A DNA stretch of 64,000 bases from Poseidonibacter ostreae (GCF_009208075.1 NZ_WFKJ01000008.1:1-64000), one strand, 5' to 3'; shown: positions 3,543 to 24,227, counted from the first letter of the stretch. Numbers and translations are program-made. Notes: generated by a model not told the origin, from the sequence alone.

Positions 3543-3750
3543 ATCTGAAGGTATAATAAGTTTTTATTATCGTCGATAAAGAAATATTGTAGATTCATGT
3601 TAGATATTGGTATGATCATAATCCAAACAGAACACTTTAGAGATAAAATCTTAAGTATTCAAGTAATAAAGCTAAATTATCTATTATTCATTGAAGAGAA
3701 AAATATTTTTTAAGTTGGAAATAGGTTGGAAAGTATATTTTAATAGACAT

Positions 3751-3800
3751 AAAAAAAGCCCGACCTAAACACTGCAAACAGTGATTAAATCGGGCTTTTA
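3751..3800 (-). terminator. Rho-independent terminator of tRNA-Arg
   Basis: Read on the minus strand, AAAAGCCCGA and TCGGGCTTTT (3790-3799 and 3754-3763) form a 10-bp outer stem running into a T tract. An inner hairpin CACTG/CAGTG lies between them (3770-3774 and 3779-3783). It starts directly after the tRNA 3' end. The A tract on the other side means it could also work on the plus strand. Confidence 0.85.
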
Positions 3801-3802
3801 GA

Positions 3803-3879
3803 TGGTACGCCTGGAGGGATTCGAACCCCCAACCGCCGGGGCCGAAACCCAGTGCTCTATCCAGTTGAGCCACAGACGC
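3803..3879 (-). tRNA. tRNA-Arg (anticodon TCG)
   Basis: The minus strand folds as a complete 77-nt cloverleaf. The acceptor arm is GCGTCTG/CAGGCGT with a G1-U72 wobble, the D stem is GCTC/GAGC, and the anticodon stem is CTGGG/CCCGG with loop TTTCGGC giving anticodon TCG. The T arm is GGGGG TTCGAAT CCCTC, followed by discriminator A and an encoded CCA. A terminator follows immediately. The G1-U72 pair is slightly unusual. The 3' end faces the accessory region on its left, the side on which tRNA-integrating elements insert. Confidence 0.95.
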
Positions 3880-3951
3880 GCTTTAAATAAGGAAAGAATA
3901 TTACCACATAAAAACTTATATACCTTTTAGGTGAGAATATTTCTTTGTTTT

Positions 3952-4812
3952 TTAGTAAAAAATATTATCTAATACAATTAAAATAAAGAAAACTATTCCT
4001 AGATATCCATTTACTGTAAAGAAAGCTTTATCTATTTTTGTAAAATCTTTATTTACTAAATAATGTTCATAACTTAGCATCACTGCACTTATTATTACTG
4101 CTAAATACGCAAAAGCTGAGCTCTCTGAGTTTATTACAAATAGTAACCAAAAGACTACTGTTAAAATATGAAATACTTTTGATATAAGCATTGTCTTTTT
4201 AGCACCAAATTTTGAAGGGATTGAGTGAAGATTTAATTTTTTATCTACTTCGATATCTTGCAAAGAATAAAGTAAATCAAATCCTGCAACCCAAAACATC
4301 ACTCCAATACTTAAAAAAATTGTCCATAAAGGAATAGTCTCTAGAACTGTTACAACGCCAGCAATTGGAGCAAGTCCTAATGATATTCCTAATATTATAT
4401 GTGCAAGATATGAAAATCTTTTAAAGTAGGAATAAGAACCTATTACAAATAAAATTGGTATTGATAAATATAGAGCTAAATCATTTACAAAATACGCAAT
4501 TAATATAAATCCAAAAGCATTTGCTATTGTAAAGACAAGCATTTGAAAAGCTGAAATCCTTCCATCAACATTTGGCCTATTAACTGTTCTTGGATTTAAA
4601 GCATCAATATCTCTATCCATATATCTATTAAATCCCATTGCAAAATTTCTAGCAGTTAGTGCTGCAAAGATTCCTAGAATCATTAGTTTAAATCCAAACC
4701 AACCATTTGCTGCAACAACCATTGCAATAAAAATAAAAGGTAGTGAAAATATAGAATGTTTGAACATTACTAGTTCATTAAAATCATTAAGTTTTTTTAG
4801 CAGTTTTTCCAT
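3952..4812 (-). CDS. mqnP: UbiA-family prenyltransferase, menaquinone pathway (MqnP)
   Basis: A 286-residue polytopic membrane protein that attaches a polyprenyl chain to the aromatic quinone precursor. Both aspartate-rich motifs of the UbiA superfamily are visible: NRYMDRDIDALNPRT near residues 62-76 (the NxxxDxxxD type that binds Mg-pyrophosphate) and DIEVDKKLNLHSIPSKFG near 187-204. In Campylobacterota, which make menaquinone through futalosine, the UbiA homologue acts as MqnP rather than on 4-hydroxybenzoate. That assignment is by taxon, because the sequence does not separate MqnP from UbiA. Transcribed singly, leftward toward the tRNA. Confidence 0.85.
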   Translation of the reverse strand: MEKLLKKLNDFNELVMFKHSIFSLPFIFIAMVVAANGWFGFKLMILGIFAALTARNFAMGFNRYMDRDIDALNPRTVNRPNVDGRISAFQMLVFTIANAFGFILIAYFVNDLALYLSIPILFVIGSYSYFKRFSYLAHIILGISLGLAPIAGVVTVLETIPLWTIFLSIGVMFWVAGFDLLYSLQDIEVDKKLNLHSIPSKFGAKKTMLISKVFHILTVVFWLLFVINSESSAFAYLAVIISAVMLSYEHYLVNKDFTKIDKAFFTVNGYLGIVFFILIVLDNIFY

Positions 4813-5491: not shown

Positions 5492-6862
5492 ATGTCAAAA
5501 TATTTAAGAAATTCTGCGATTTTAGCAACTGCTGCTGTTATTGGAATGACTGGTTGTACATCTAAAGATACAATGGGAACTTCTTCTGATAAAGTTATTC
5601 AATTACAAAAAGAAATTGATGCGCAAAATGCAAAAATCTCTCAATTAGAAATGGATAAATCAAAAGCTTTATCTTCAATTAATGCAATGAATGCAGAATC
5701 AAAAGATTCAAATGCTGTAAGTAATTCTCTAGTTCCTGCAAATGCAAAAGCTGGTGAATGTTACGCAAAAGTTTTAGTTCCTGCAAAATATGAAACTAAA
5801 AATATTCAAAAAATGTTAAAAGAAGCTAGAACTAATATATCAATTACTCCTGCAACTTATAAAGTTGTAGAAAAAAAAGTTACTATTAGAGAAGCATCTT
5901 CAAAATTAGTTGCAGTTCCTGCTACATATAAAACTATTACAGAAAAAGTTTTAATTAAACCAGAAACAACTAAATTAGTTGTTGTTCCAGGTACATATAA
6001 AAATGCTTCTCAAAAAGTAATGGCATCTCCTGAATCTTCAAGAATAGTTACAGTTCCAGCTACTTATAAAACTGTAAAAGAAACTATTATGGTTGAACCA
6101 GAAAAAACTAAATTAGTTACAGTTCCTGCTACATATAAAACTGTATCTGAAAAGATTTTAGTAAAACCAGCTTATACTGCATGGAAAAAAGGTAGAGGTG
6201 AAATTGAAAAAGTTGATAACTCTACTGGTGATATTTTATGTTTAGTTGAAATCCCAGCTGTTTATAAAACACTTACTTCAAAAGTAATTGATAAACCAGC
6301 ATCTACAAGAGCTGTTAAAACTCCTGCTGTTTATAAAACTGTAGAAAGAAGAGTTGTTGCAACTCCTGCTACTACTAAAGAGATTAAAATTCCAGCTACT
6401 TATAAATCAGTACCAACTCAAGTTGAAGCAACTCCTGCTACTACTAGAAAAATTGTTATTCCAGCTGTTTACAAAATGGTAACTAAAAAAGTTGTTGCAA
6501 CTCCTGCTACTACTAAAGAAGTTAAAATTCCAGCTGTATGCAAAATGGTTAAAACAAGAGTAGTTGCTACTCCTGCAAAAGAAGTTAAAACTAACATTCC
6601 AGCACTTTATACTAATGTACCAACAAAAGTTAAAGTTGCAGATTCTTACCTTAAATGGCAAGGAATACTTTGTGAAACAAATACAACTGCTAACGTAGTT
6701 TCAGATTTACAAAGAGCATTAAAAGCTAAAAAATTCAACATCACTAAAATTGATGGTGTTTATGGACCAGAAACAAAAGCTGCTGTACAAGCATACCAAA
6801 GAGCAAACAAATTAAATGAAGGTGCTCTTACATTAAAAACTCTTAAATCTTTAGGTTTATAG
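5492..6862 (+). CDS. Lipoprotein with two modules of 21-23-residue PA(T/V)YK repeats and a C-terminal peptidoglycan-binding domain
   Basis: A 456-residue predicted lipoprotein. The lipobox GMTGC has its lipidated Cys at residue 22, and a short coiled coil spans residues 32-65. From 95 to 388 come about eleven units of roughly 23 residues with the pattern P-A-x-Y-K-x-V-x-x-x-V-x-x-x-P. They form two modules: each opens with Cys a few residues before VPAxY or IPAxY (C90, C250) and closes with W...G...ILC (W231 to C250; W389 to C394), so C250 belongs to both. Residues 400-456 are a PG_binding_1 domain (DLQRALKAKKFN, DGVYGPETKAAVQAYQ). It was probably anchored in the outer membrane and bound to the wall, perhaps as a spacer. 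One repeat has Cys350 where Tyr is usual. The repeat is not a family I can name. Confidence 0.8.
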   Translation: MSKYLRNSAILATAAVIGMTGCTSKDTMGTSSDKVIQLQKEIDAQNAKISQLEMDKSKALSSINAMNAESKDSNAVSNSLVPANAKAGECYAKVLVPAKYETKNIQKMLKEARTNISITPATYKVVEKKVTIREASSKLVAVPATYKTITEKVLIKPETTKLVVVPGTYKNASQKVMASPESSRIVTVPATYKTVKETIMVEPEKTKLVTVPATYKTVSEKILVKPAYTAWKKGRGEIEKVDNSTGDILCLVEIPAVYKTLTSKVIDKPASTRAVKTPAVYKTVERRVVATPATTKEIKIPATYKSVPTQVEATPATTRKIVIPAVYKMVTKKVVATPATTKEVKIPAVCKMVKTRVVATPAKEVKTNIPALYTNVPTKVKVADSYLKWQGILCETNTTANVVSDLQRALKAKKFNITKIDGVYGPETKAAVQAYQRANKLNEGALTLKTLKSLGL

Positions 6863-14635: not shown

Positions 14636-15355
14636 TTAAGCTTTATAAATTGCCTTTGAAAGAATTAACTCTTTTAAAGGCTCTTCTAAAACCTCTTTGG
14701 CTTCAACAAAATCAATCTCATTTTCTTTACATAAAAGCTCTAAAGTATCAGAAATACTCTGCTTTTTATTTGCTCTTTTAATTAGTGCAAATATAAATTG
14801 ATTTATTTCTCGAAATAAAACATCATCACTTTTATAATCATAGTATATTATTAAAAAGTTTTCTCTTTTTGTTTCATAGTCTTTATTTATAATGTCAAAT
14901 TTACATTTTTTTACTCTACTCCAAGGAGATAAAAGGTAAGAATTTTCCCATGAGAAATCACTCTTTTTAATCTTTTTATACTCTTTCATATATATTTCAA
15001 CTTCAATCCAGTCAAAATATAAAAGTTCATATAAGTATTTTTGCTTATGAAAAAGTTTCTGTTTTTTTACAAACTTTCTATAGTCATTTGCAATCTGCCA
15101 TACAAAAGGTGTACTAGGAGGATTTTTCAAAAATTCATAAATGCTTTTTTCTAGTTTATCTTCACTAATATATTTAGAAAACTCCATAAATGTAGTTTTT
15201 ATAATTTCTTCAAATCTATAAAAAACCAGTTTTTGATAAACACCATATGCAGAACTATTAGGATTATTTTTTTGATCACTTATAATATCAAAGAATCTGT
15301 CTTGAACGTCTCTTTCTATACTATTTTCTGATTTTTTGATTTTCTTATTTGTCAT
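14636..15355 (-). CDS. hvfC: HvfC/BufC-like partner protein (DUF2063-type putative DNA-binding domain)
   Basis: A 239-residue protein; the ATG at 15355 overlaps the hvfB stop by 11 bases and is preferred to an in-frame upstream start at 15403. The N-terminal region has DRFFDIISD, then SAYGVYQKLVFYRFEEIIKT and a helical segment with YLYELLYFDWIEVEIYMKEY. These match in outline the DUF2063 / BufC N-terminal domain that accompanies DUF692 enzymes. Partner proteins of this kind bind the precursor peptide and deliver it to the MNIO enzyme; the DNA-binding name is historical. The second half (residues ~130-239) is likely the winged-helix-like part. Assignment depends strongly on position immediately after hvfB. 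Confidence 0.75.
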   Translation of the reverse strand: MTNKKIKKSENSIERDVQDRFFDIISDQKNNPNSSAYGVYQKLVFYRFEEIIKTTFMEFSKYISEDKLEKSIYEFLKNPPSTPFVWQIANDYRKFVKKQKLFHKQKYLYELLYFDWIEVEIYMKEYKKIKKSDFSWENSYLLSPWSRVKKCKFDIINKDYETKRENFLIIYYDYKSDDVLFREINQFIFALIKRANKKQSISDTLELLCKENEIDFVEAKEVLEEPLKELILSKAIYKA

Positions 15356-16169
15356 TACGAACTGCCTTACAAATACTTTCCATTCTCTTATACTCAACTG
15401 CAAGTTCTTTTAAAGGAGGTACATTATTATCTCGTTCAATCATTACAGGTGCATCAATTTGTTTTAATGTATAATCTAAAAGTTTCCAAACACCAGAACA
15501 AATTGGCATTCCATGTGAATCGATTTTTAAACTAGATTCTTCATCAAAATAATGTCCTGCCATGTGCATATAAGCTACTTTACTTTTATCTATTTCATCA
15601 ATGAATTTTCTAGCTTTAAAAGAGTGATTTACAGAGTTTACAAAGACATTATTTACATCTAAAAGCATTTGAGCACCTGATTTTTCCATTACTTCATTTA
15701 TAAAATCAACTTCTCTCATTTCTGAGTATGGAACTAAATAATATGTAGCATTTTCAAGTATTAAATTTCTTTGAATTATATCCTCAACCTCTTTTACTCT
15801 ATCAGCTATAATATTTACCATTTTTTTTGTCATTGGCACGGGTAATAGCTCGTAAGATTGTTTATTATCTATTGATGAGAAAGAAAGATGTTCAGAATAA
15901 AATTCGATATTGTATCTATCTAGGAAGGTTTTGATCTGCTTAACAAACTTTCTATTAAGTTTGTCAGCAGATCCGATTGATAATGATAAACCATGTGCAA
16001 CAGTAGGTCTTGAAAACACTGCTTCTTCAAAAAATTTTTCAAAGATTTTAGGCATATGCATCCAGTTTTCAGGAGTTACCTCCCACCAATCTGGTTGAAA
16101 TTTACTCTTTTTTATATCAAGTAAAAAATCACTTCTTAAGCCTAGTCCACATCCATTTAAATTTATCAT
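15345..16169 (-). CDS. hvfB: DUF692 / MNIO enzyme (HvfB/BufB-like), multinuclear iron peptide-modifying oxidase
   Basis: A 274-residue TIM-barrel protein of the multinuclear non-heme iron-dependent oxidative enzyme family. The opening GCGLGLRSDFLLDI and WEVTPENWM are typical of DUF692. Candidate iron ligands are visible: H59 (AHGLSLSIG), E93/H94 (YSEHLSF), E139/N140 (LENATYY), D171/N173 (LLDVNNVFVN), H202 and H206 (YMHMAGH), D217/H219 (IDSHGMP) and E245 (IERDNNVP). Characterised members convert Cys in GKCG-type motifs to oxazolone/thioamide. The gene lies 27 bases after the precursor hvfA and overlaps hvfC, so the natural substrate is almost certainly the neighbouring peptide. The exact chemistry on this variant core is inference. 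Confidence 0.9.
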   Translation of the reverse strand: MINLNGCGLGLRSDFLLDIKKSKFQPDWWEVTPENWMHMPKIFEKFFEEAVFSRPTVAHGLSLSIGSADKLNRKFVKQIKTFLDRYNIEFYSEHLSFSSIDNKQSYELLPVPMTKKMVNIIADRVKEVEDIIQRNLILENATYYLVPYSEMREVDFINEVMEKSGAQMLLDVNNVFVNSVNHSFKARKFIDEIDKSKVAYMHMAGHYFDEESSLKIDSHGMPICSGVWKLLDYTLKQIDAPVMIERDNNVPPLKELAVEYKRMESICKAVRNDK

Positions 16170-16196
16170 TATTTATCTTTTCAAATAGTTGAAAAA

Positions 16197-16487
16197 CTAT
16201 TTGCTACCACACTTACCAGCTCCACAAGAACCAGCTTTTTTCTCAGTTTTCTTCATATCGCCACCACATTTACCAGCTCCACAAGAACCAGCTTTTTTCT
16301 CAGCTTTTTCTTTCATTTCACCACCACATTTACCAGCACCACATGAACCTTTTTTGTCCATTTTTTCAGTTTTCTTCATATCTCCACCACATTTACCAGC
16401 ACCACATGAACCATTTCCTGCAAATGCAGTTGTAGTAGTTAAAGCAGCTCCTAACATAATTCCAGCTAATTTCATTTTAGTATTCAT
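16197..16487 (-). CDS. hvfA: HvfA/bufferin-like RiPP precursor with four SCGAGKCG repeats
   Basis: A 96-residue secreted peptide. The ATG at 16487 has AAGGA 7 bases upstream and gives a proper Sec signal (MNTKMKLAGIMLGAALTTTT, cleavage near AFAG). An in-frame ATG at 16532 would add 15 non-signal residues. The mature part has four units SCGAGKCG with Cys pairs at 28/33, 49/54, 69/74 and 88/93 and unit periods of 21, 20 and 19, separated by Lys/Glu linkers such as DMKKTEKMDKK. Precursors of characterised MNIO systems carry EGKCG motifs; here each core has Ala instead of Glu (AGKCG). Eight cysteines and the copper-efflux neighbourhood point to a periplasmic copper-binding modified peptide. It is followed directly by hvfB and hvfC. 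Confidence 0.9.
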   Translation of the reverse strand: MNTKMKLAGIMLGAALTTTTAFAGNGSCGAGKCGGDMKKTEKMDKKGSCGAGKCGGEMKEKAEKKAGSCGAGKCGGDMKKTEKKAGSCGAGKCGSK

Positions 16488-16616
16488 AATATTTCCTTTT
16501 ATTTTTTGGTAATTTAAGTTTACCATTTTCATTATTTACTTTCAAATAAAGAAAGCGACTTCACTTTTTATTTATTTCATTTTTATCAAATATTCAGTGG
16601 TATTCTATATTATTAT

Positions 16617-16634
16617 TGTGTAGTAAGTGTGTAG
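16617..16634 (-). promoter_or_regulatory. Putative response-regulator operator upstream of hvfABC
   Basis: On the plus strand TGTGTAG occurs twice at exactly 11-bp spacing (16617 and 16628), the layout of OmpR/PhoB-family direct half-sites. The whole 18-mer differs at only three positions from the element at 22405-22422 upstream of the efflux operon. It lies in the 157-base gap between the pump gene and hvfA, 130 bases before the hvfA ATG. Binding by the regulator encoded at 23568-24227 is inference. Confidence 0.6.
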
Positions 16635-16644
16635 ATTATTAAAT

Positions 16645-19600
16645 TTAATGACTTAAGTCACAATCTTCCATTCTTCCACCTTTTTTTATAGCTAATATAT
16701 AAAAAATTGATGGTATTACTATCAATGTTAAAAATGCTGAAGAGACCATCCCACCAATCATTGGGGCTGCAATTCTTTGCATCACTTCACTTCCTACTCC
16801 ATTTATATACATAATAGGAATAAGTCCTCCTAATATTGCAAATAAAGTCATAAGTTTAGGACGTAACCTAAGCACCGCACCTTTATATATAGCATTATAA
16901 ATATCTTCTTTTTCTATTTTTTTGCACTTTTGTTTTAACTCTATCATTGCTTCATGTAAATAAACAATCATAACAATAGAAGTTTCAGCAGCAACACCAA
17001 GTAAAGCTAGAAAACCAACAATTACTGCAATTGAGATATTAAAATCCAAGAAATCTAAATAAAATATTCCACCAGTTAATGCAAAAGGTAGTGTAAAGAA
17101 AATAATCATCGTATATGTAATATTTTTTAGTGCAAAATATATAAGTATAAAAATAAGAATAAAAGTCAAAGGAATAATATAAGCTAATCGCTGCATTGCT
17201 GATTCTAAATATTCACTCTGCCCTGCCCATTCATAATAAAAACCAGATGGAAGTTTTATATCTTCTAACAAAGTTTTTGCTTCATCTTTATATTGTTTTG
17301 CAGATATTCCACTTTTAGGTGTAATGTATATAAAGTTTACATTTAATGCTTTTTCAGATTTAATAATAGAAGGACCTTCTTCATACTTAAGCTCGGCAAA
17401 CATTTCAAGAGGCTGAAAACCAAGTTTTGTCTTAATCTGTAAATTACGTAAACTTGTAATATCTTCTCTTTGAGTTGTTTCAAATCTTAAAGTCATAGGA
17501 TAACGCTCTAAACCATCTAAGAAAGTTGATACTTTTGCACCTGCAACTCCAAGCGATATAGTTGATAAAATATCATTTTTATTAATCCCATATCGTGATA
17601 TCATCTCTTCATCTATATTGATATTTAAATAATATCCTGAATTAATCTTATCTGTTGAAACAGAAAGTGTTTTATCAAATTTTTTTAGTTTTTGCTCTAT
17701 TATTCCTGCTGTCTCTTCTAGTTTTTGATGGTTATTTCCATATAGTTTTATTCCAAGAGGAGTTCTAATACCTGTTAAAAGCATATCAATTCTACCTCTA
17801 ATTGGATATGTCCAAGAATTTATAAGTCCTGCAACTTGTAGTTTCTTATCCATCTCTTCCATTAGTTTTTTATATGTCATTCCAGGACGCCACTCATTCT
17901 CTGGTTTAAATGTAACTATTGTCTCAATCATAGCTAGTGGAGCTGGATCTGTTGCAGTATCAGCTCGACCTGCTTTTCCAAATACAGTTTGTACTTCAGG
18001 AAAAGATTTTAGAATCTTATCAGTTTTAAATGTTAGCTCTCTTGCTAAATCAATACCTAAACCATAAGGAGTTACAGGCATATACATAAATACTGTTTCA
18101 TTCATCATTGGCATAAATTCCCAATTTTGTTTTTTATAAACTGGATATGCTAAAACTATCGTTGCAACAAATGCTACAACAACAAAATATCTTAATTTTA
18201 AAGATAGTTTTAAAAGTGGAGAATAAAGGAAAATAAAAAACTTATTTAACCAGTTTTTATTTTCACTCATTATTTTTCCCTTTATAAAGAAGACCATTAA
18301 AATAGGCACTATTGTAATAGAAAGAATTGCTCCAGAAATCATTGCAAAAGATTTAGTAAAAGCTAGAGGAGTAAAAAGTCTTCCCTCTTGCCCTGTTAAA
18401 GCAAAAATTGGTAAAAAAGAGACTACAACCAAAATAAGAGCAAAAAAGATAGGTCGCCCTACTTGTTTTGCCGATTTAATTATAATAGAAACTCTTTCTT
18501 CATTTGAAATATTCTCTTTTCCTTGAAGATATTTATGAGCATTTTCAACCATTACAATTGTTGCATCTACCATCGCTCCAATAGCAATTGCAATTCCACC
18601 TAAACTCATGATATTTGACCCCATACCAAAAGCTTTCATAAGTAAAAATGTAATTAACACTGTAAGTGGTAAAGTAATGATAATAATAAGTGCTGATCTA
18701 AAATGGAATAAAAATAGTCCTGTTATAATCATAACAATAATAGACTCTTCAAGTAAGGTATTTGTTAAAGTATCTATTGCTTTATCAATTAGTGTTGTTC
18801 TATCATAAGTTTCAACTACTTCAACACCATCTACACTCAAAGTTTTTAACTTTTGCTTTACAGCTTTTATAACAGCATAAGGATTCTCTCCATATCGAAC
18901 TACTACAATACCACCAACAGTATCACCTTCACCATTTAAATCAGCCATACCACGTCTATTTGAAGAAGTTATATTAACCTCAGCAATGTCACTAATTTTT
19001 AAAGGAATGGAATTTGTAGTTTTTACTGTAATATTTTCAATATCAACAACACTTTGTAAATAACCTTTAGCTTGAATCATATGTTCAAAACCATTTTCTA
19101 AAATTATTCTTCCACCTTTTTCATCATTGTTTTTACTTAGTGCATTTTTGACATCTTTAATACTTAAGTCATACTGCACTAATTTATCTTGATTTAGTGT
19201 GATTTCGTAGTTTTTTATAAAACCACCAATAGATGCAATTTCACTAACTCCATCAACACCAAGTAAGGCATACTTATAATAATAGTCTTGTAATGTTCGC
19301 AATTCATCTAAAGATTTAGTATCTGATTTTAAAGCATATTCATAAGCCCAACCAACACCAGTTGCATCAGGACCAATTGCTACATCTACCCCTTGTGGAA
19401 ATGTACCTTGTAGTTGAGATAACTGCTCTAAAATTCTATTTCTTGAATCATATAAATCAGTTCCATCTTTAAAGATAATATATATAAGTGCATTTTGAAA
19501 AGAACTCATAGCTCGTACTGTATCTATATTAGGTAAAGACATAAGATTTGAAATCAATGGATAGGATACTTGTTCTTCAATAGTTTTAGGACTCTGCCCT

Positions 19601-19761
19601 GCCCACTTAACTTCTACAATTACTTGAGGAGGTGATAAGTCAGGTAAGGCATCTAAGGCTGTATTCTTAACAGCCCAAATAGATGCAAAAGTTAAAATGA
19701 TTACTGAAAATAGTATTAAAAACTTATTTCTAATACTATATGATATTACACTCTCTACCAT
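16645..19761 (-). CDS. cusA: CusA/CzcA-type heavy-metal RND efflux pump
   Basis: A 1038-residue inner-membrane proton/metal antiporter, full family length. The proton-relay residues of HME-RND pumps are seen: Asp in TM4 (IGAMVDATIVMVENAHK), Glu in GVAAETSIVMIVYLHEA and Lys in RLRPKLMTLFAILGGL. From memory of E. coli CusA, the copper-relay Met of LEMVE is kept (LAMIETIV) and so is that of RIDML (RIDMLLTGIRTPLG), while the third (AEML) appears to be Leu (RELTF). This favours Cu(I)/Ag(I) over Zn/Co. It is the last gene of the YtkA-like, OMF, adaptor, RND series, the same order as the H. pylori crdAB-czcBA operon. Confidence 0.9.
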   Translation of the reverse strand: MVESVISYSIRNKFLILFSVIILTFASIWAVKNTALDALPDLSPPQVIVEVKWAGQSPKTIEEQVSYPLISNLMSLPNIDTVRAMSSFQNALIYIIFKDGTDLYDSRNRILEQLSQLQGTFPQGVDVAIGPDATGVGWAYEYALKSDTKSLDELRTLQDYYYKYALLGVDGVSEIASIGGFIKNYEITLNQDKLVQYDLSIKDVKNALSKNNDEKGGRIILENGFEHMIQAKGYLQSVVDIENITVKTTNSIPLKISDIAEVNITSSNRRGMADLNGEGDTVGGIVVVRYGENPYAVIKAVKQKLKTLSVDGVEVVETYDRTTLIDKAIDTLTNTLLEESIIVMIITGLFLFHFRSALIIIITLPLTVLITFLLMKAFGMGSNIMSLGGIAIAIGAMVDATIVMVENAHKYLQGKENISNEERVSIIIKSAKQVGRPIFFALILVVVSFLPIFALTGQEGRLFTPLAFTKSFAMISGAILSITIVPILMVFFIKGKIMSENKNWLNKFFIFLYSPLLKLSLKLRYFVVVAFVATIVLAYPVYKKQNWEFMPMMNETVFMYMPVTPYGLGIDLARELTFKTDKILKSFPEVQTVFGKAGRADTATDPAPLAMIETIVTFKPENEWRPGMTYKKLMEEMDKKLQVAGLINSWTYPIRGRIDMLLTGIRTPLGIKLYGNNHQKLEETAGIIEQKLKKFDKTLSVSTDKINSGYYLNINIDEEMISRYGINKNDILSTISLGVAGAKVSTFLDGLERYPMTLRFETTQREDITSLRNLQIKTKLGFQPLEMFAELKYEEGPSIIKSEKALNVNFIYITPKSGISAKQYKDEAKTLLEDIKLPSGFYYEWAGQSEYLESAMQRLAYIIPLTFILIFILIYFALKNITYTMIIFFTLPFALTGGIFYLDFLDFNISIAVIVGFLALLGVAAETSIVMIVYLHEAMIELKQKCKKIEKEDIYNAIYKGAVLRLRPKLMTLFAILGGLIPIMYINGVGSEVMQRIAAPMIGGMVSSAFLTLIVIPSIFYILAIKKGGRMEDCDLSH

Positions 19762-19770
19762 AGCTATTTC

Positions 19771-20781
19771 CTACCAGTCATCATCAGAGTCAGAGTTATA
19801 AAGTGCATTTGTAATAGCATCTGAGTCAAGTAGGAATAAAGCATTATTTATAACTTTATCACCTTTTTCTAAACCATCTGATATTTCATATTTATTTGAA
19901 GAAATTCTTTTAGCTTCAACTTTTATAGGTTCAAACTCTCTATTGGATATTGGTTTAAATACATAGTGATTACTTCCTTTAGTTAATACTGCCGTTTTTG
20001 GTAGTGTTAATATTGTTTTATTAAGTGATTTGATTTTTACACTTGCAAACATATTTGGATAAAGGTTTAAGTCTTTATTATCAATTATAAAACGGACATC
20101 TATAGTTTTTGTTTTTTCATTTACCATAGGATAGATAAAATCAACTTTTGATTTAATAGCTTGTGTTAAACCATCAATATAAATATAAGCACTCATATCA
20201 TTTTTTATAAAAGTCAAATCTTTTTGATAAACCTGAGCTATAAACCATAACTTATTTATGTCTGCTAGTTGTAAAAGAAGTTTTCCTTTTTTAACTGCAC
20301 TTTTATTATTGATATTCTTCTTTATTACTATTGAATTTATTGGAGATAATATTTTTATTCCATCAATTGAACTTTTATTCTTTTTAATTTTATTAATCTC
20401 TTCCTTAGCTAAATCTAATACTTTTAGTTTCTCTAGTGAACTTCTATAAAGATTTTTATTTATACTTCTTGCTACTTGTATCTCTTTTTGTATACTTAAG
20501 ATATCATCACTATATATAGAAAATAAAGGCTCACCTTTTTTTACATACATAAAGTTTTTATTAGCATTTAGTTTCGTTATAAAACCATCAAATCTTGTAA
20601 CTATATCTACTACATTTGATTCATCAATTTTTGTTTTTCCATAAAAGCTTTTAGTAATTCCAATTTTTTCTTCTTTTACCAAAGTTGTTTTTTTATTAAA
20701 TAGTTGTTCTACTTCTATTATCTTTGCATTCATTACACTTATTGTAAGAATACTTAAGAATGTGGCTTTTATTATATTCAT
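19771..20781 (-). CDS. cusB: CusB/CzcB-like periplasmic adaptor (membrane fusion protein)
   Basis: A 336-residue adaptor linking the RND pump to the outer-membrane channel. It has an N-terminal signal (MNIIKATFLSILTISVMNA), then the lipoyl/barrel segment FDGFITKLNANKNFMYVKKG and EPLFSIYSDDILSIQKEI, matching the CusB GYVxKL...VKKGQPLFxIYSPEL pattern. A short coiled hairpin, the second lipoyl half (IKILSPINSIVIKKNI) and C-terminal barrel domains follow. It lacks the N-terminal Met cluster and heavy-metal-binding extension of E. coli CusB, so direct metal transfer may rely on the YtkA-like protein or the RiPP. It overlaps the OMF gene by 4 bases. Confidence 0.88.
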   Translation of the reverse strand: MNIIKATFLSILTISVMNAKIIEVEQLFNKKTTLVKEEKIGITKSFYGKTKIDESNVVDIVTRFDGFITKLNANKNFMYVKKGEPLFSIYSDDILSIQKEIQVARSINKNLYRSSLEKLKVLDLAKEEINKIKKNKSSIDGIKILSPINSIVIKKNINNKSAVKKGKLLLQLADINKLWFIAQVYQKDLTFIKNDMSAYIYIDGLTQAIKSKVDFIYPMVNEKTKTIDVRFIIDNKDLNLYPNMFASVKIKSLNKTILTLPKTAVLTKGSNHYVFKPISNREFEPIKVEAKRISSNKYEISDGLEKGDKVINNALFLLDSDAITNALYNSDSDDDW

Positions 20782-21974
20782 TTAAGTGCCTTATATCTAT
20801 AGTATTTTGATTTTGAGTAGTTTGAATAATACTTTTCTAATTGTTCATAAGATTTAAGTTCATAAGAGATTAACTCATTTAAATTCTGTATTATCATTTG
20901 AGGTTTAATAGAAGAAAAGCTATTGTAATTTTCAAGATTTTTCTGCATTTTTTGTTTTAGAGGAATAATAGTTTCATGTATCATTGAATAGTTTTTATAT
21001 GCACTATTAATATTATTTTCTAAAGACATAAGTTCTATTTTAAAGTTCTGTTTTATATCTTCTAATCTATTACGCTCTTCTTTAGCTTTAATTTTTTGTT
21101 TTAAAGCTTTTACTTTTTCTGTTTTATAAATAGATAAGGGAATATTTACTGAGATATTTGCATAATCTTTAAACTTAGAATCTCTATTAAAATAAGCAAC
21201 ATTTACTTTTATATCACCTTTTTGTTTTTCTAGTTCTAGTTTTGAAAGTTCATTAAATTTACCTATTTTTTCTTCTTGTATTTTTATCTTTGGATGATTT
21301 TGTATATCCATATTTAAAACTAATTTTCCTACTTCTAAAGAAGCATCAATAGTATCAATTTTTTTATATGAAATTTGCTCTAGTTTTAAATATAGATTAT
21401 CTATCATATTTTTTAGATTTTGCTTTTGAATTTGCACATTTGAATATGCAATTTTTGCACTTAGTATTTCATTTTGACTTGATTTACCAAGAGAATATAA
21501 TCCTTGAGATAATTTTTCTATTTTTTTAATATTTTGTTCGTATTTTTTTAAAAGTTCTAATTTTCTTTCTAATATTAAAATATTATATGAAATCTCATAT
21601 ATTTTAGATTTTAGTATTAGTTTTGTATCTTCTAATTGTAAAGCAGCAATAGTTTTATCTTTTTGTGAAATCTCTTCTTTAATATCTAGCTTATTTCCAA
21701 CAGGAATAACTTGAGAAAAACCAATATATTGTGCTTGCATTGCTTCTTGATCTCTTTTAAAAGGTTCGTCAAAATGAATGTCATTTACACCAAGAGTTAA
21801 AGTTGGATTCATCCATTTTCTTGAAAGATTGATATTCTCATCTGCTACATTTATTGAAGATTGAATACTTTTTAAGTTTTGATTATTTTTTAAAGCAGTA
21901 TCTACAATTTCATCAAGACTTAATGCAAAGCTTGATGAAATAGCAAAAGATAAAGCTATAGCTACTTTTTTCAT
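20778..21974 (-). CDS. TolC-like outer-membrane efflux protein (CrdB/CusC-like)
   Basis: A 398-residue protein with signal peptide (MKKVAIALSFAISSSFALSL) and two outer-membrane-efflux repeats made of long helices, rich in Lys, Gln, Leu and Asn, e.g. LDEIVDTALKNNQNLKSIQS at the N-terminus, a standard opening for this family. It forms the trans-envelope duct for the pump downstream. Its start overlaps the preceding stop by one base (TAATG). By position it corresponds to H. pylori CrdB. Confidence 0.87.
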   Translation of the reverse strand: MKKVAIALSFAISSSFALSLDEIVDTALKNNQNLKSIQSSINVADENINLSRKWMNPTLTLGVNDIHFDEPFKRDQEAMQAQYIGFSQVIPVGNKLDIKEEISQKDKTIAALQLEDTKLILKSKIYEISYNILILERKLELLKKYEQNIKKIEKLSQGLYSLGKSSQNEILSAKIAYSNVQIQKQNLKNMIDNLYLKLEQISYKKIDTIDASLEVGKLVLNMDIQNHPKIKIQEEKIGKFNELSKLELEKQKGDIKVNVAYFNRDSKFKDYANISVNIPLSIYKTEKVKALKQKIKAKEERNRLEDIKQNFKIELMSLENNINSAYKNYSMIHETIIPLKQKMQKNLENYNSFSSIKPQMIIQNLNELISYELKSYEQLEKYYSNYSKSKYYRYKALK

Positions 21975-22357
21975 TAGATATTCACACTTCCTCTTACTGT
22001 ATGAATCTTTCCATCTTTATCTTTAAACTTTAAGTGATACTGCCATGTTCCACCCATTGAAAAGTTAACCATCATCTTATATTTTCCATCTACTAATTTA
22101 GCTTTCGCTTTATATTCCATATATGGCATACCTGGCATCTCTGGCATAAATACTTTTATTTTTACTTTTACATCTGTAACACCATTTCCATCTTTGCTTA
22201 ATTGTGCATAAATATCATTATTCCCAACAATAAGAGATTTTTCAGATGTTAATACAACTTCATAACCATTTTTTTCACCTGTTTGAGATAAGGCTTGGGC
22301 ATTTAAAATTCCAATACTTAAGAGCATTGCAACTATTACTTTGAATAAATTTTTCAT
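21974..22357 (-). CDS. Secreted YtkA/FixH-like Met-rich protein (CrdA-like by position)
   Basis: A 127-residue periplasmic protein with signal MKNLFKVIVAMLLSIGILNA and an immunoglobulin-like YtkA-type domain. The segment KVFMPEMPGMPYMEYKAK carries four Met in a dozen residues, and further Met occur in KYKMMVNFSMGGTWQYHLKF. Thioether-rich sites of this type bind Cu(I) in the periplasm. It is the first gene of the efflux operon, preceded by the operator at 22405. In H. pylori the operon of the same layout starts with crdA, encoding a small secreted protein needed for copper resistance. Chaperone-like delivery of copper to the pump is inference. Confidence 0.8.
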   Translation of the reverse strand: MKNLFKVIVAMLLSIGILNAQALSQTGEKNGYEVVLTSEKSLIVGNNDIYAQLSKDGNGVTDVKVKIKVFMPEMPGMPYMEYKAKAKLVDGKYKMMVNFSMGGTWQYHLKFKDKDGKIHTVRGSVNI

Positions 22358-22404
22358 TTGTGAAACTCCATTTTTAATTTTATAAGAGAAGTTTATCGAT
22401 TTTA

Positions 22405-22422
22405 TGTGGAGTATGTGTGGAG
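22405..22422 (-). promoter_or_regulatory. Putative response-regulator operator upstream of the copper-efflux operon
   Basis: TGTGGAG on the plus strand at 22405 and 22416, an 11-bp direct repeat (CTCCACA on the gene strand). It lies 10 bases after the kinase stop codon and 48 bases before the YtkA-like ATG. A TATAAA-like -10 sits about 20 bases downstream on the gene strand. It is the near-twin of the element before hvfA (15 of 18 positions). Confidence 0.6.
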
Positions 22423-22432
22423 AGATTAAATA

Positions 22433-23590
22433 TTAAAAAGAGAGAAAGAAAGTTGTTCCTATATTTTTTTTAGATTCTACATCTATTTTGATATTATATT
22501 TAGCACAAATATGACTTACAATATTTAGCCCTATTCCAAAGCCACCCTGCTCTTTTGTAGCTCTATAGTATCTTCTGTAAATATCTTTTAATTTATCTTC
22601 TTCTATACCAATACCCGTATCAGAGATTTCTAGTATTCTATTTTTTAAAGATATATTTATTTGCCCGCTTATTTTGTTGTATTTAATTGCATTTGAGATT
22701 AGATTGTTTATCACTCTAATTGCATCATCTTTGTTTATTAAATATTCAAAGTTTTCTAGTGTAGTATTTATTTTTATTTTTTTCTTTGAAGCTAGAGGTT
22801 CTAGATATTCTAACTGCTCTAAGATTAAACTATTAAGATATATCTTTTCAGTACTTTTATTTTCATCACTTCCTTGTAAAAAAATATAAATTAAATCTTT
22901 GTATATTTCAGATACCCTTTTTGCACTAAGTCTTACTCTTTGGATTTGTTTTTCATTTAAGTTTTCTTTTTCTGTAGACATTAAAATTGCAGTTATTGGA
23001 GTATTTAACTCATGGGTTGTATCTCTAATAAAATTATTTAGTTTTTCTCTCTCTTCTTTGATTGGTTTTAAAAATAGTTTTGCTAAATAAAATCCTATTA
23101 AGGATATTAAAGAGTATAAAATAAGAAAAAAGAGTATGATATTTACTTTTAACTCTTTTATTTTATCAAAGTAACTATTCTCTTCAATAGCTATATAATA
23201 TACTCCTAAATGACCTAAAGTTGATTTGTCTATTAATATAAATTGTTTTTTATCATCTTTTATTATGTCTTTTGAAAAGTCTATTTTAGACTCAAGGTTC
23301 CCATATATTTTTTCTTTTTTTTCATTATAAAAAGATATCTTATATTTATTTGTATCTAATATCTTTGTTCTATCAAAAGGTGTATCTGTCATATGTGAAA
23401 AAATTATCTTTGAAGATATTTTTGAAACTTTATTTTGCATATTTGATTTTGCTAAATCAAAATATAATCTTTTTTCATTTTCAAAATAAAAAAATGCTAC
23501 AAGTAACATTAAAATAAAAGAAGAGCCTAAAAAAAGGCTAAGAAATCTTATAAAGGTTCTTTTTTCACTAAGCGTTAAATCTATAACCAA
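22433..23590 (-). CDS. Sensor histidine kinase (CusS/CrdS-like)
   Basis: A 385-residue membrane kinase. TM1 (FIRFLSLFLGSSFILMLLVA) is followed by a periplasmic sensor of about 110 residues, then TM2 (LKVNIILFFLILYSLISLIG). The HisKA domain has H-box RDTTHELNTPITAILMSTE (phosphoaccepting His). The ATPase has its N box in RVINNLISNAIKYNK, the G1 box DTGIGIEED and the G2 box GFGIGLNIV. It overlaps the upstream response-regulator gene by 23 bases. Sensing of periplasmic copper is inferred from the operon behind it. Confidence 0.88.
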   Translation of the reverse strand: MVIDLTLSEKRTFIRFLSLFLGSSFILMLLVAFFYFENEKRLYFDLAKSNMQNKVSKISSKIIFSHMTDTPFDRTKILDTNKYKISFYNEKKEKIYGNLESKIDFSKDIIKDDKKQFILIDKSTLGHLGVYYIAIEENSYFDKIKELKVNIILFFLILYSLISLIGFYLAKLFLKPIKEEREKLNNFIRDTTHELNTPITAILMSTEKENLNEKQIQRVRLSAKRVSEIYKDLIYIFLQGSDENKSTEKIYLNSLILEQLEYLEPLASKKKIKINTTLENFEYLINKDDAIRVINNLISNAIKYNKISGQINISLKNRILEISDTGIGIEEDKLKDIYRRYYRATKEQGGFGIGLNIVSHICAKYNIKIDVESKKNIGTTFFLSF

Positions 23591-24227
23591 CCCCTCTTGT
23601 ATTTATTATGCACTCTTCTCCAAGTATTTTTCGTAAACTCTTTATATATGTTCGTATAGTTGATGCAAGCGGTGCATCTTCATAAGACCAAACATTTAAA
23701 CTCAGTTCTTCAATACTTACATTTTTATTTTTATTCTTATTTAAATAAAGTAATACATCACTCTCTTTTTGTGTAATGTGAATTTGCTTATTATCTTTTT
23801 GAATATATAAGTTTTTTGTATCTAAGTATGTATTATTTGATAATTCTATTTTAGAACTAGGAGAAATATTATGTAATCTTCTAATATTATTAATACGTAA
23901 ATCTAACTCTTTTAACTCAAAAGGTTTTTTTATATAGTCATCACAACCAACTTTAAAACCCTCTTCTATATCTTCAAGCATATTTGCAGAAGTAATAAAA
24001 ATAGCAGGAGTTTTTATCTCTTTATTTCTTATATCCTCTAATAATTCAAAGCCTGATAAGTTTGGAACATTAACATCCAAAAGTAATAAGTCAAATGTTT
24101 GTGAATAAATTTTTTCTTGAGCTTCTTCTCCATTGAATACTGAAACTATTTCATAGTTATTCTCTTCTAGGTGCTCTGTAATGATTTCATTTAGGATTAA
24201 ATCATCTTCCATTAGTAGTATTTTCAT
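23568..24227 (-). CDS. OmpR-family response regulator (CusR/CrdR-like)
   Basis: A 219-residue regulator starting MKILLMEDDLILNEIITEHL at the ATG 24227, with AGGTGG before it. An in-frame ATG at 24257 lies inside the inverted repeat and is unlikely. The receiver domain has the acidic pair in MEDD, the phospho-Asp in LLLLDVNVPNLSGF, and Thr/Lys in FITSAN and YIKKPF. The C-terminal winged-helix (residues ~125-219) has TIRTYIKSLRKILGEECI and ends TRGVGYRFNA. Such regulators bind direct repeats at ~10-11 bp, matching the elements at 22405 and 16617. Confidence 0.9.
   Translation of the reverse strand: MKILLMEDDLILNEIITEHLEENNYEIVSVFNGEEAQEKIYSQTFDLLLLDVNVPNLSGFELLEDIRNKEIKTPAIFITSANMLEDIEEGFKVGCDDYIKKPFELKELDLRINNIRRLHNISPSSKIELSNNTYLDTKNLYIQKDNKQIHITQKESDVLLYLNKNKNKNVSIEELSLNVWSYEDAPLASTIRTYIKSLRKILGEECIINTRGVGYRFNA

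Follow-up and report, generated by a model that had tools for sequence, protein, structure and literature searches.

The window, a 64,000-nucleotide stretch of Poseidonibacter ostreae DNA (GCF_009208075.1 NZ_WFKJ01000008.1:1-64000), carries nine open reading frames on the minus strand between positions 14636 and 24227. They encode a response regulator, a sensor kinase, a CrdA/YtkA protein, an outer-membrane channel, a periplasmic adaptor, a CusA-type RND pump, and the peptide cluster hvfA, hvfB, and hvfC (Table 1). The genes are tightly packed. The regulator and kinase genes overlap by 23 nucleotides (nt), crdA and the channel gene by 1 nt, and the channel and adaptor genes by 4 nt, with 9 nt between adaptor and pump. 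In the peptide cluster, hvfA and hvfB are 27 nt apart and hvfB and hvfC overlap by 11 nt. Two larger gaps, of 75 nt between the kinase gene and crdA and 157 nt between the pump gene and hvfA, each contain a putative operator. A convergent MATE gene lies downstream of hvfC. The array is real: reading frames, junctions, and domain matches all bear out the nine-gene order, domains, close overlaps, and single strand of a preliminary description of the window.

Table 1. Features of the copper locus in the window, with occurrences of its cysteine motif in other loci
Feature	Position	Strand	Evidence
Response regulator, OmpR family, CrdR/CusR-like	23568..24227	-	Response_reg and Trans_reg_C; orthologues adjoin crd pumps and hvfABC
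Sensor histidine kinase, CrdS/CusS-like	22433..23590	-	HisKA, HATPase_c; 23-nt overlap with regulator gene
Putative operator and -10-like TAAACT, upstream of crdA	22390..22422	-	two CTCCACA half-sites, 11-bp period, N9; 39.7 bits
CrdA/YtkA-like secreted Met-rich copper protein	21974..22357	-	motif MPEMPGMPYM; YtkA E=2e-22; PDB 9ll2 E=3e-14
Outer-membrane channel, CrdB/CusC-like	20778..21974	-	OEP E=2e-28
Periplasmic adaptor, CusB/CzcB-like	19771..20781	-	HlyD_D23 E=4e-48
RND pump, CusA/CzcA family, Met triad M561, M611, M660	16645..19761	-	TIGR00914 over cut-off; CusA best solved structure
Putative operator and -10-like TAGAAT, upstream of hvfA	16602..16634	-	two CTACACA half-sites, N9; 31.1 bits; block conserved in relatives
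HvfA-type precursor, 96 aa, signal peptide, four (S)CGAGKCG units (8 Cys)	16197..16487	-	NF050137 over cut-off
HvfB, MNIO-type maturase	15345..16169	-	PF05114 E=6e-87; conserved ligands
HvfC partner protein, start most likely ATG 15355	14636..15355	-	NF050145 E=3e-19; DUF2063 in 13/13 homologues; PDB 3dee
MKCGAGKCG-type occurrences outside HvfA	L219:4754-5065; L221:4642-5037; L222:7916-8269, 3688-4791; L218:2800-3594		

The efflux genes are of the Crd/Cus type. The pump scores 1016 bits against the CusA/CzcA model TIGR00914 (cut-off 701), and its nearest relative among solved structures is E. coli CusA. Met561, Met611, and Met660 align with the three Cu(I)-binding methionines, or Met triad, of that protein. 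The CrdA protein matches PDB 9ll2, titled 'Copper resistance protein', and its methionine motif (MXEMPGMXXM form) agrees with the H. pylori CrdA pattern MMXEMPGMXXMXEM (PMC9182242). Together with this motif and the Met triad, the gene order crdA-crdB-czcB-czcA upholds the earlier comparison with H. pylori crdAB-czcBA.

The peptide cluster is of the HvfABC type, with repeated GKCG-type cysteine units in a secreted precursor, an MNIO enzyme with its metal ligands, and a partner protein of the HvfC or RiPP recognition element (RRE) type, where RiPP stands for ribosomally synthesized and post-translationally modified peptide. Translation of hvfA starts at ATG 16487 rather than 16532; this start is conserved in relatives and has a ribosome site. 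The precursor exceeds the cut-off of the KCGExKCG domain model NF050137 (31.4 bits, cut-off 19.5). In HvfB, residues H59, H94, E139, D171, N173, N174, H202, H206, D217, H219, and E245 are identical in at least 97% of 101 homologues, and they include equivalents of N, D, and H residues shown to be necessary in H. influenzae HvfB. HvfC most likely begins at ATG 15355, not TTG 15403. Its own DUF2063 and NGO1945_C matches are borderline, its homologues carry DUF2063 throughout, and its profile matches PDB 3dee (E=3e-6); by these matches it is classed as a divergent member of the HvfC/RRE-type partners.

The HvfA modification made by HvfBC is now assigned as a copper-binding 5-thiooxazole, which replaces the oxazolone/thioamide chemistry named in the preliminary description (PMC13419390). 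The label 'bufferin-type' used there is loose. The cluster belongs to the Buf_EGKCG/oxazolin (Hvf) branch, whose core consists of RiPP, MNIO, DUF2063, and DoxX genes (PMC12452194), but the precursor has no DUF2282 or other Pfam family and the array no sigma/anti-sigma domain, so membership in Buf1 or Buf2 was rejected. No DoxX (HvfX) gene adjoins the window locus, although some relatives have one; DoxX is optional in the family, whose genes occur in 'various combinations' (PMC12452194).

The crdA and hvfA promoters share a putative operator, CTmCACA-N4-CTmCACA-N9-TANNNT. Direct repeats with an 11-bp period (CTCCACAcataCTCCACA in the kinase-crdA gap and CTACACActtaCTACACA in the pump-hvfA gap) are followed after 9 nt by a -10-like TANNNT. 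Promoters that OmpR-family regulators activate typically have direct repeats, spaced by one helical turn, in place of the -35 element. A sigma-70 scan found no hexamer pair that uses either operator-linked -10. In the 2.96-Mb genome, the 18-bp operator core is matched perfectly at the crdA and hvfA sites and nowhere else. Across a survey sample of 397 Campylobacterota genomes, the repeat pattern with its -10 was found 55 times, against one hit in a reversed control. Genes behind the CT[AC]CACA form are crdA, hvfA, YceI-hvfABC, a DUF411-like gene (named by sequence reading), a DoxX protein gene, and a regulator gene.

The two promoter classes also predict each other. A matrix built from 21 sites of other genera ranks the window sites first and second, at 39.7 and 31.1 bits; the third-ranked window site scores 10.4 and the control 12.0. 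With a matrix from 20 crdA promoters only, the hvfA site scores 25.0 against a control maximum of 16.9. When the same crdA-only matrix is applied to the hvf promoters of 26 genomes, 12 score above the 99th percentile of 6,240 control pieces at a reach of 300 nt; with the reach extended to 900 nt, as a YceI gene may precede hvfA, 13 exceed the control maximum. These include genomes in which hvfABC lies far from any Cus-type pump. Among seven aligned sequences of the pump-hvfA region, conservation is found mainly at the box and the -10. Because a pump-trained matrix predicts hvf promoters, some of them distant from a pump, the conserved unit is, as far as promoter sequences indicate, a regulon with a separate predicted hvf promoter. 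The single copper regulon proposed earlier is therefore likely in that crdA and hvfA share a putative operator, and is to be amended in that hvfABC has a predicted promoter of its own.

Several related elements were seen alongside. The predicted hvfA leader (window 16487-16601, minus strand) is about 110 nt long and has a short inverted repeat, CTTTC-TTTATTT-GAAAG, that is partly conserved in close relatives. In other Campylobacterota (L078, L081, L083-L085, L089-L093), repeats of the CTTCACA type, with T at the third place, lie ahead of PepSY-like membrane proteins and of small secreted proteins; preceding these and other genes, they are probably the operator of another regulator and were set aside. 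In one genome, an orphan precursor rich in Met and His ends in CGAGKCGAGKCGG; it has a box of its own and is divergent from a complete crd operon, while hvfABC lies elsewhere (G330:C23:30596-30932; L070, L108).

Full-length MNIO genes are present in 26 of the 397 genomes, one in each. A TIGR00914 pump over cut-off also occurs in 19 of these, and lies within 15 kb of the MNIO gene in 10, where 0.27 would be expected at random. Chance adjacency is thereby rejected, and the non-random placement expected in the preliminary description was found. Four other genomes of the sample, and the isolate Poseidonibacter lekithochrous, show the same arrangement as the window. Three arrangements can be distinguished. 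In the window and P. lekithochrous, regulator, kinase, pump, and hvfABC follow one another on one strand. A second form, in which hvfABC is divergent from its own regulator-kinase pair and mostly lies beside the pump operon, occurs in g10, Halarcobacter, and Malaciobacter; YceI usually precedes hvfABC there. In other families, a regulator-kinase pair comes after hvfABC. The window regulator has its best match in the hvf-linked regulator in all ten genomes of the pump-linked Arcobacteraceae clade and in four other genomes. In the HvfB tree this Arcobacteraceae group is one clade of 24 rows (100/99); the HvfB of two other Arcobacteraceae (G299 and G330) belongs to a separate lineage and is encoded away from the pump. 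In Pseudomonadota, 2 of 50 hvfB loci have an RND or adaptor relative nearby and none has the box. Another regulator-kinase pair of the P. ostreae genome shares 84% and 81% identity with that of the window; transposase-like genes lie beside it, and no pump lies directly behind it (G000:C2:47097-48891; L106:7098-8892).

Six Arcobacteraceae genomes (G315, G337, G291, G370, G122, and G241) possess a precursor-only form of the locus. It ends at the same MATE gene that flanks hvfC in the window, with only the precursor before it; in G241 the pump has the opposite orientation and lies beyond two regulator-kinase sets. The NCBIfam HvfA domain exceeds its cut-off in all five of the six genomes that were scanned. 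Genome incompleteness was rejected as the cause, as the assemblies are 99-100% complete, three are single contigs, and about 27 bp separate precursor and MATE gene in L203. On the pump tree, the precursor-only rows require at least three changes of state, and a single clade is rejected (approximately unbiased test, p-AU 1e-5). G241 is sister to Malaciobacter halophilus, an hvfBC carrier (100/100), and four precursor-only g2 rows are sister to a metagenome-assembled genome with hvfBC (100/99). Repeated loss of hvfBC with retention of hvfA is preferred over gain because HvfB forms one clade; the counts alone would allow gain.

The repeat unit differs between the two groups. With hvfBC, 86 of 90 units match CGAGKCG exactly and none of the 180 cysteines lies outside a unit; without hvfBC, 16 of 23 units are exact and 46 of 52 cysteines lie inside units (Fisher p=0.001, relatedness ignored). 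The G315 precursor has added metallothionein-like CxC stretches. Because the unit is near invariant only beside hvfBC, the enzyme seems to act on and constrain it, while the peptide persists without the enzyme. Judged by gene content, the arrangement does not always include MNIO modification, which may be dispensable: in six relatives the locus retains the peptide in the absence of MNIO and HvfC. Among fully assembled genomes with Buf_EGKCG precursors, the MNIO is missing in only 67 of 2,583 (PMC12452194). In the sampled Campylobacterota genomes with a CGAGKCG coding motif it is missing in 38 of 59, not all of which carry an HvfA-type peptide.

The motif also occurs outside HvfA. MKCGAGKCG, or a close form, is found in lipoproteins encoded directly after CusA-type pumps. 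A CusB-type adaptor carries it at its N-terminus, and a DsbD_2 membrane protein, with cbb3 oxidase-like genes nearby, carries it at its C-terminus. Its presence in these proteins, and its retention at the pump locus without MNIO in at least three lineages, make it conceivable, though we hold this tentatively, that Campylobacterota Cus/Crd pumps generally use CGAGKCG for Cu(I) hand-off, the motif acting as a plain thiolate ligand. Orphan KCGAGKCG precursors, some with a CTACACA box, occur in MNIO-less genomes, mainly of f7 g21 (L209-L213, L215, L217, L220). They adjoin genes for DoxX, a Glu_synthase-domain protein, Gluconate_2-dh3, and a GMC oxidoreductase, and these loci possibly form an MNIO-free copper cluster. 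Elsewhere in the window, the plus strand encodes a 456-aa lipoprotein-like reading frame made up mostly of repeated VPATYKTV-type units (5492-6862).

The locus is probably a two-promoter periplasmic copper regulon that joins Crd/Cus efflux to an HvfABC peptide. The kinase would sense excess periplasmic copper and phosphorylate the CrdR-like regulator, which would bind the direct repeat in the -35 place at both promoters. The first promoter would drive crdA, channel, adaptor, and pump for export of Cu(I) across the envelope, and the second would drive hvfABC. HvfB and HvfC would convert the cysteines of the CGAGKCG units, probably to 5-thiooxazoles, and the peptide, exported by Sec, would bind periplasmic Cu(I) next to the pump, for buffering or hand-off.

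Some results weigh against this interpretation. All three peptide-cluster proteins fall short of the equivalog cut-offs (24.5 bits against 95 for full-length HvfA, 314 against 360 for HvfB, whose best model this is, and 70 against 142 for HvfC). The operator is not strong everywhere, as 13 of 26 hvf promoters score at or below the control maximum, and the ten linked genomes (three g1, one g11, one g12, four g10, and one g35) share ancestry, which affects the linkage counts. In all six precursor-only genomes, MNIO and HvfC matches are absent genome-wide. This last result also favors the strongest alternative, that HvfA is mainly an unmodified, cysteine-rich, metallothionein-like Cu(I) carrier for the pump and its modification an option repeatedly lost or gained. 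The multiple changes on the pump tree, the retained unit cysteines with the CxC stretches of G315, and the motif in pump-linked lipoproteins and the adaptor point the same way. However, the unit is near invariant beside hvfBC, hvfB and hvfC are intact in the window with their ligands conserved, and an unrelated enzyme could modify the orphan peptides. An unmodified carrier is thus a serious but rather unlikely explanation.

The remaining alternatives concern regulation, and both are improbable. A signal other than copper, such as nitric oxide or envelope stress, with copper handling secondary, would accord with the nitric oxide responses that H. pylori CrdRS also mediates and with one RNA-seq study that did not recover crdA in the CrdRS regulon (PMC9927306). 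The copper induction of the H. pylori pump CrdAB-CzcBA through CrdRS (PMC12319023) argues against it, as do the CrdA motif, the CusA methionine triad, and the copper-binding oxazolin family. Slightly less probable still is a single long pump operon with hvfABC as its distal part and the internal operator unused. The common strand, a pump-hvfA gap with no terminator-like site on the minus strand, and short pump-YceI-hvfA gaps in several precursor-only genomes would suit such a transcript, but the 157-nt gap holds an operator as strong as any and conserved across relatives, hvfABC of other families has the box without an adjacent pump, and the g10 arrangement is divergent. With a predicted operator and promoter of its own, hvfABC is not necessarily the end of the pump transcript.

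The HvfABC/oxazolin copper RiPP and Crd/Cus efflux are each already known. As the preliminary description had supposed, no published account of this linkage in Campylobacterota was found in the literature searched, where subscription journals are thinly covered, a negative that is not proof of novelty. The main text of PMC12452194 mentions neither efflux, RND, two-component, Campylobacter, nor Arcobacter. The locus bears on the link between MNIO-made copper peptides and copper export in sea-dwelling relatives of Campylobacter. Because peptide cluster, pump, and two-component system share a locus and a predicted operator, buffering and efflux lend themselves to testing as a single circuit, and the precursor-only relatives offer a natural control for the need of thiooxazole modification.

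Among known systems, H. pylori CrdAB-CzcBA with CrdRS has the same four-gene order, CrdA methionine motif, and a copper two-component system. There, however, CrdRS (HP1364/HP1365) is encoded apart from the pump (HP1326-1329), whereas here all lie at one locus, and the described Crd system has no HvfABC component. E. coli CusCBA/CusRS shares the CusA-type pump with its Met triad and the OmpR-type regulator; the window has a CrdA/YtkA protein instead of CusF and the added peptide cluster. HvfABC of nontypeable Haemophilus influenzae (oxazolin, Buf_EGKCG) is alike in its Sec-exported precursor with KCGxGKCG-form units, MNIO, RRE-type partner, and A-B-C order. It differs in its AEGKCGEGKCG units, against (S)CGAGKCG in a longer repeat and no adjacent HvfX in the window, where the cluster follows a copper pump and two-component system and shares their putative operator. 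The gigPABT cluster of Cupriavidus metallidurans is a precedent for interplay of this kind, being a copper-induced MNIO cluster that assists CusCBA in copper resistance (PMC10304878). Its precursor is of another class, gig is divergent from an extracytoplasmic function (ECF) sigma gene (rpoQ), and cus forms a determinant of its own, unlike the single locus of P. ostreae.

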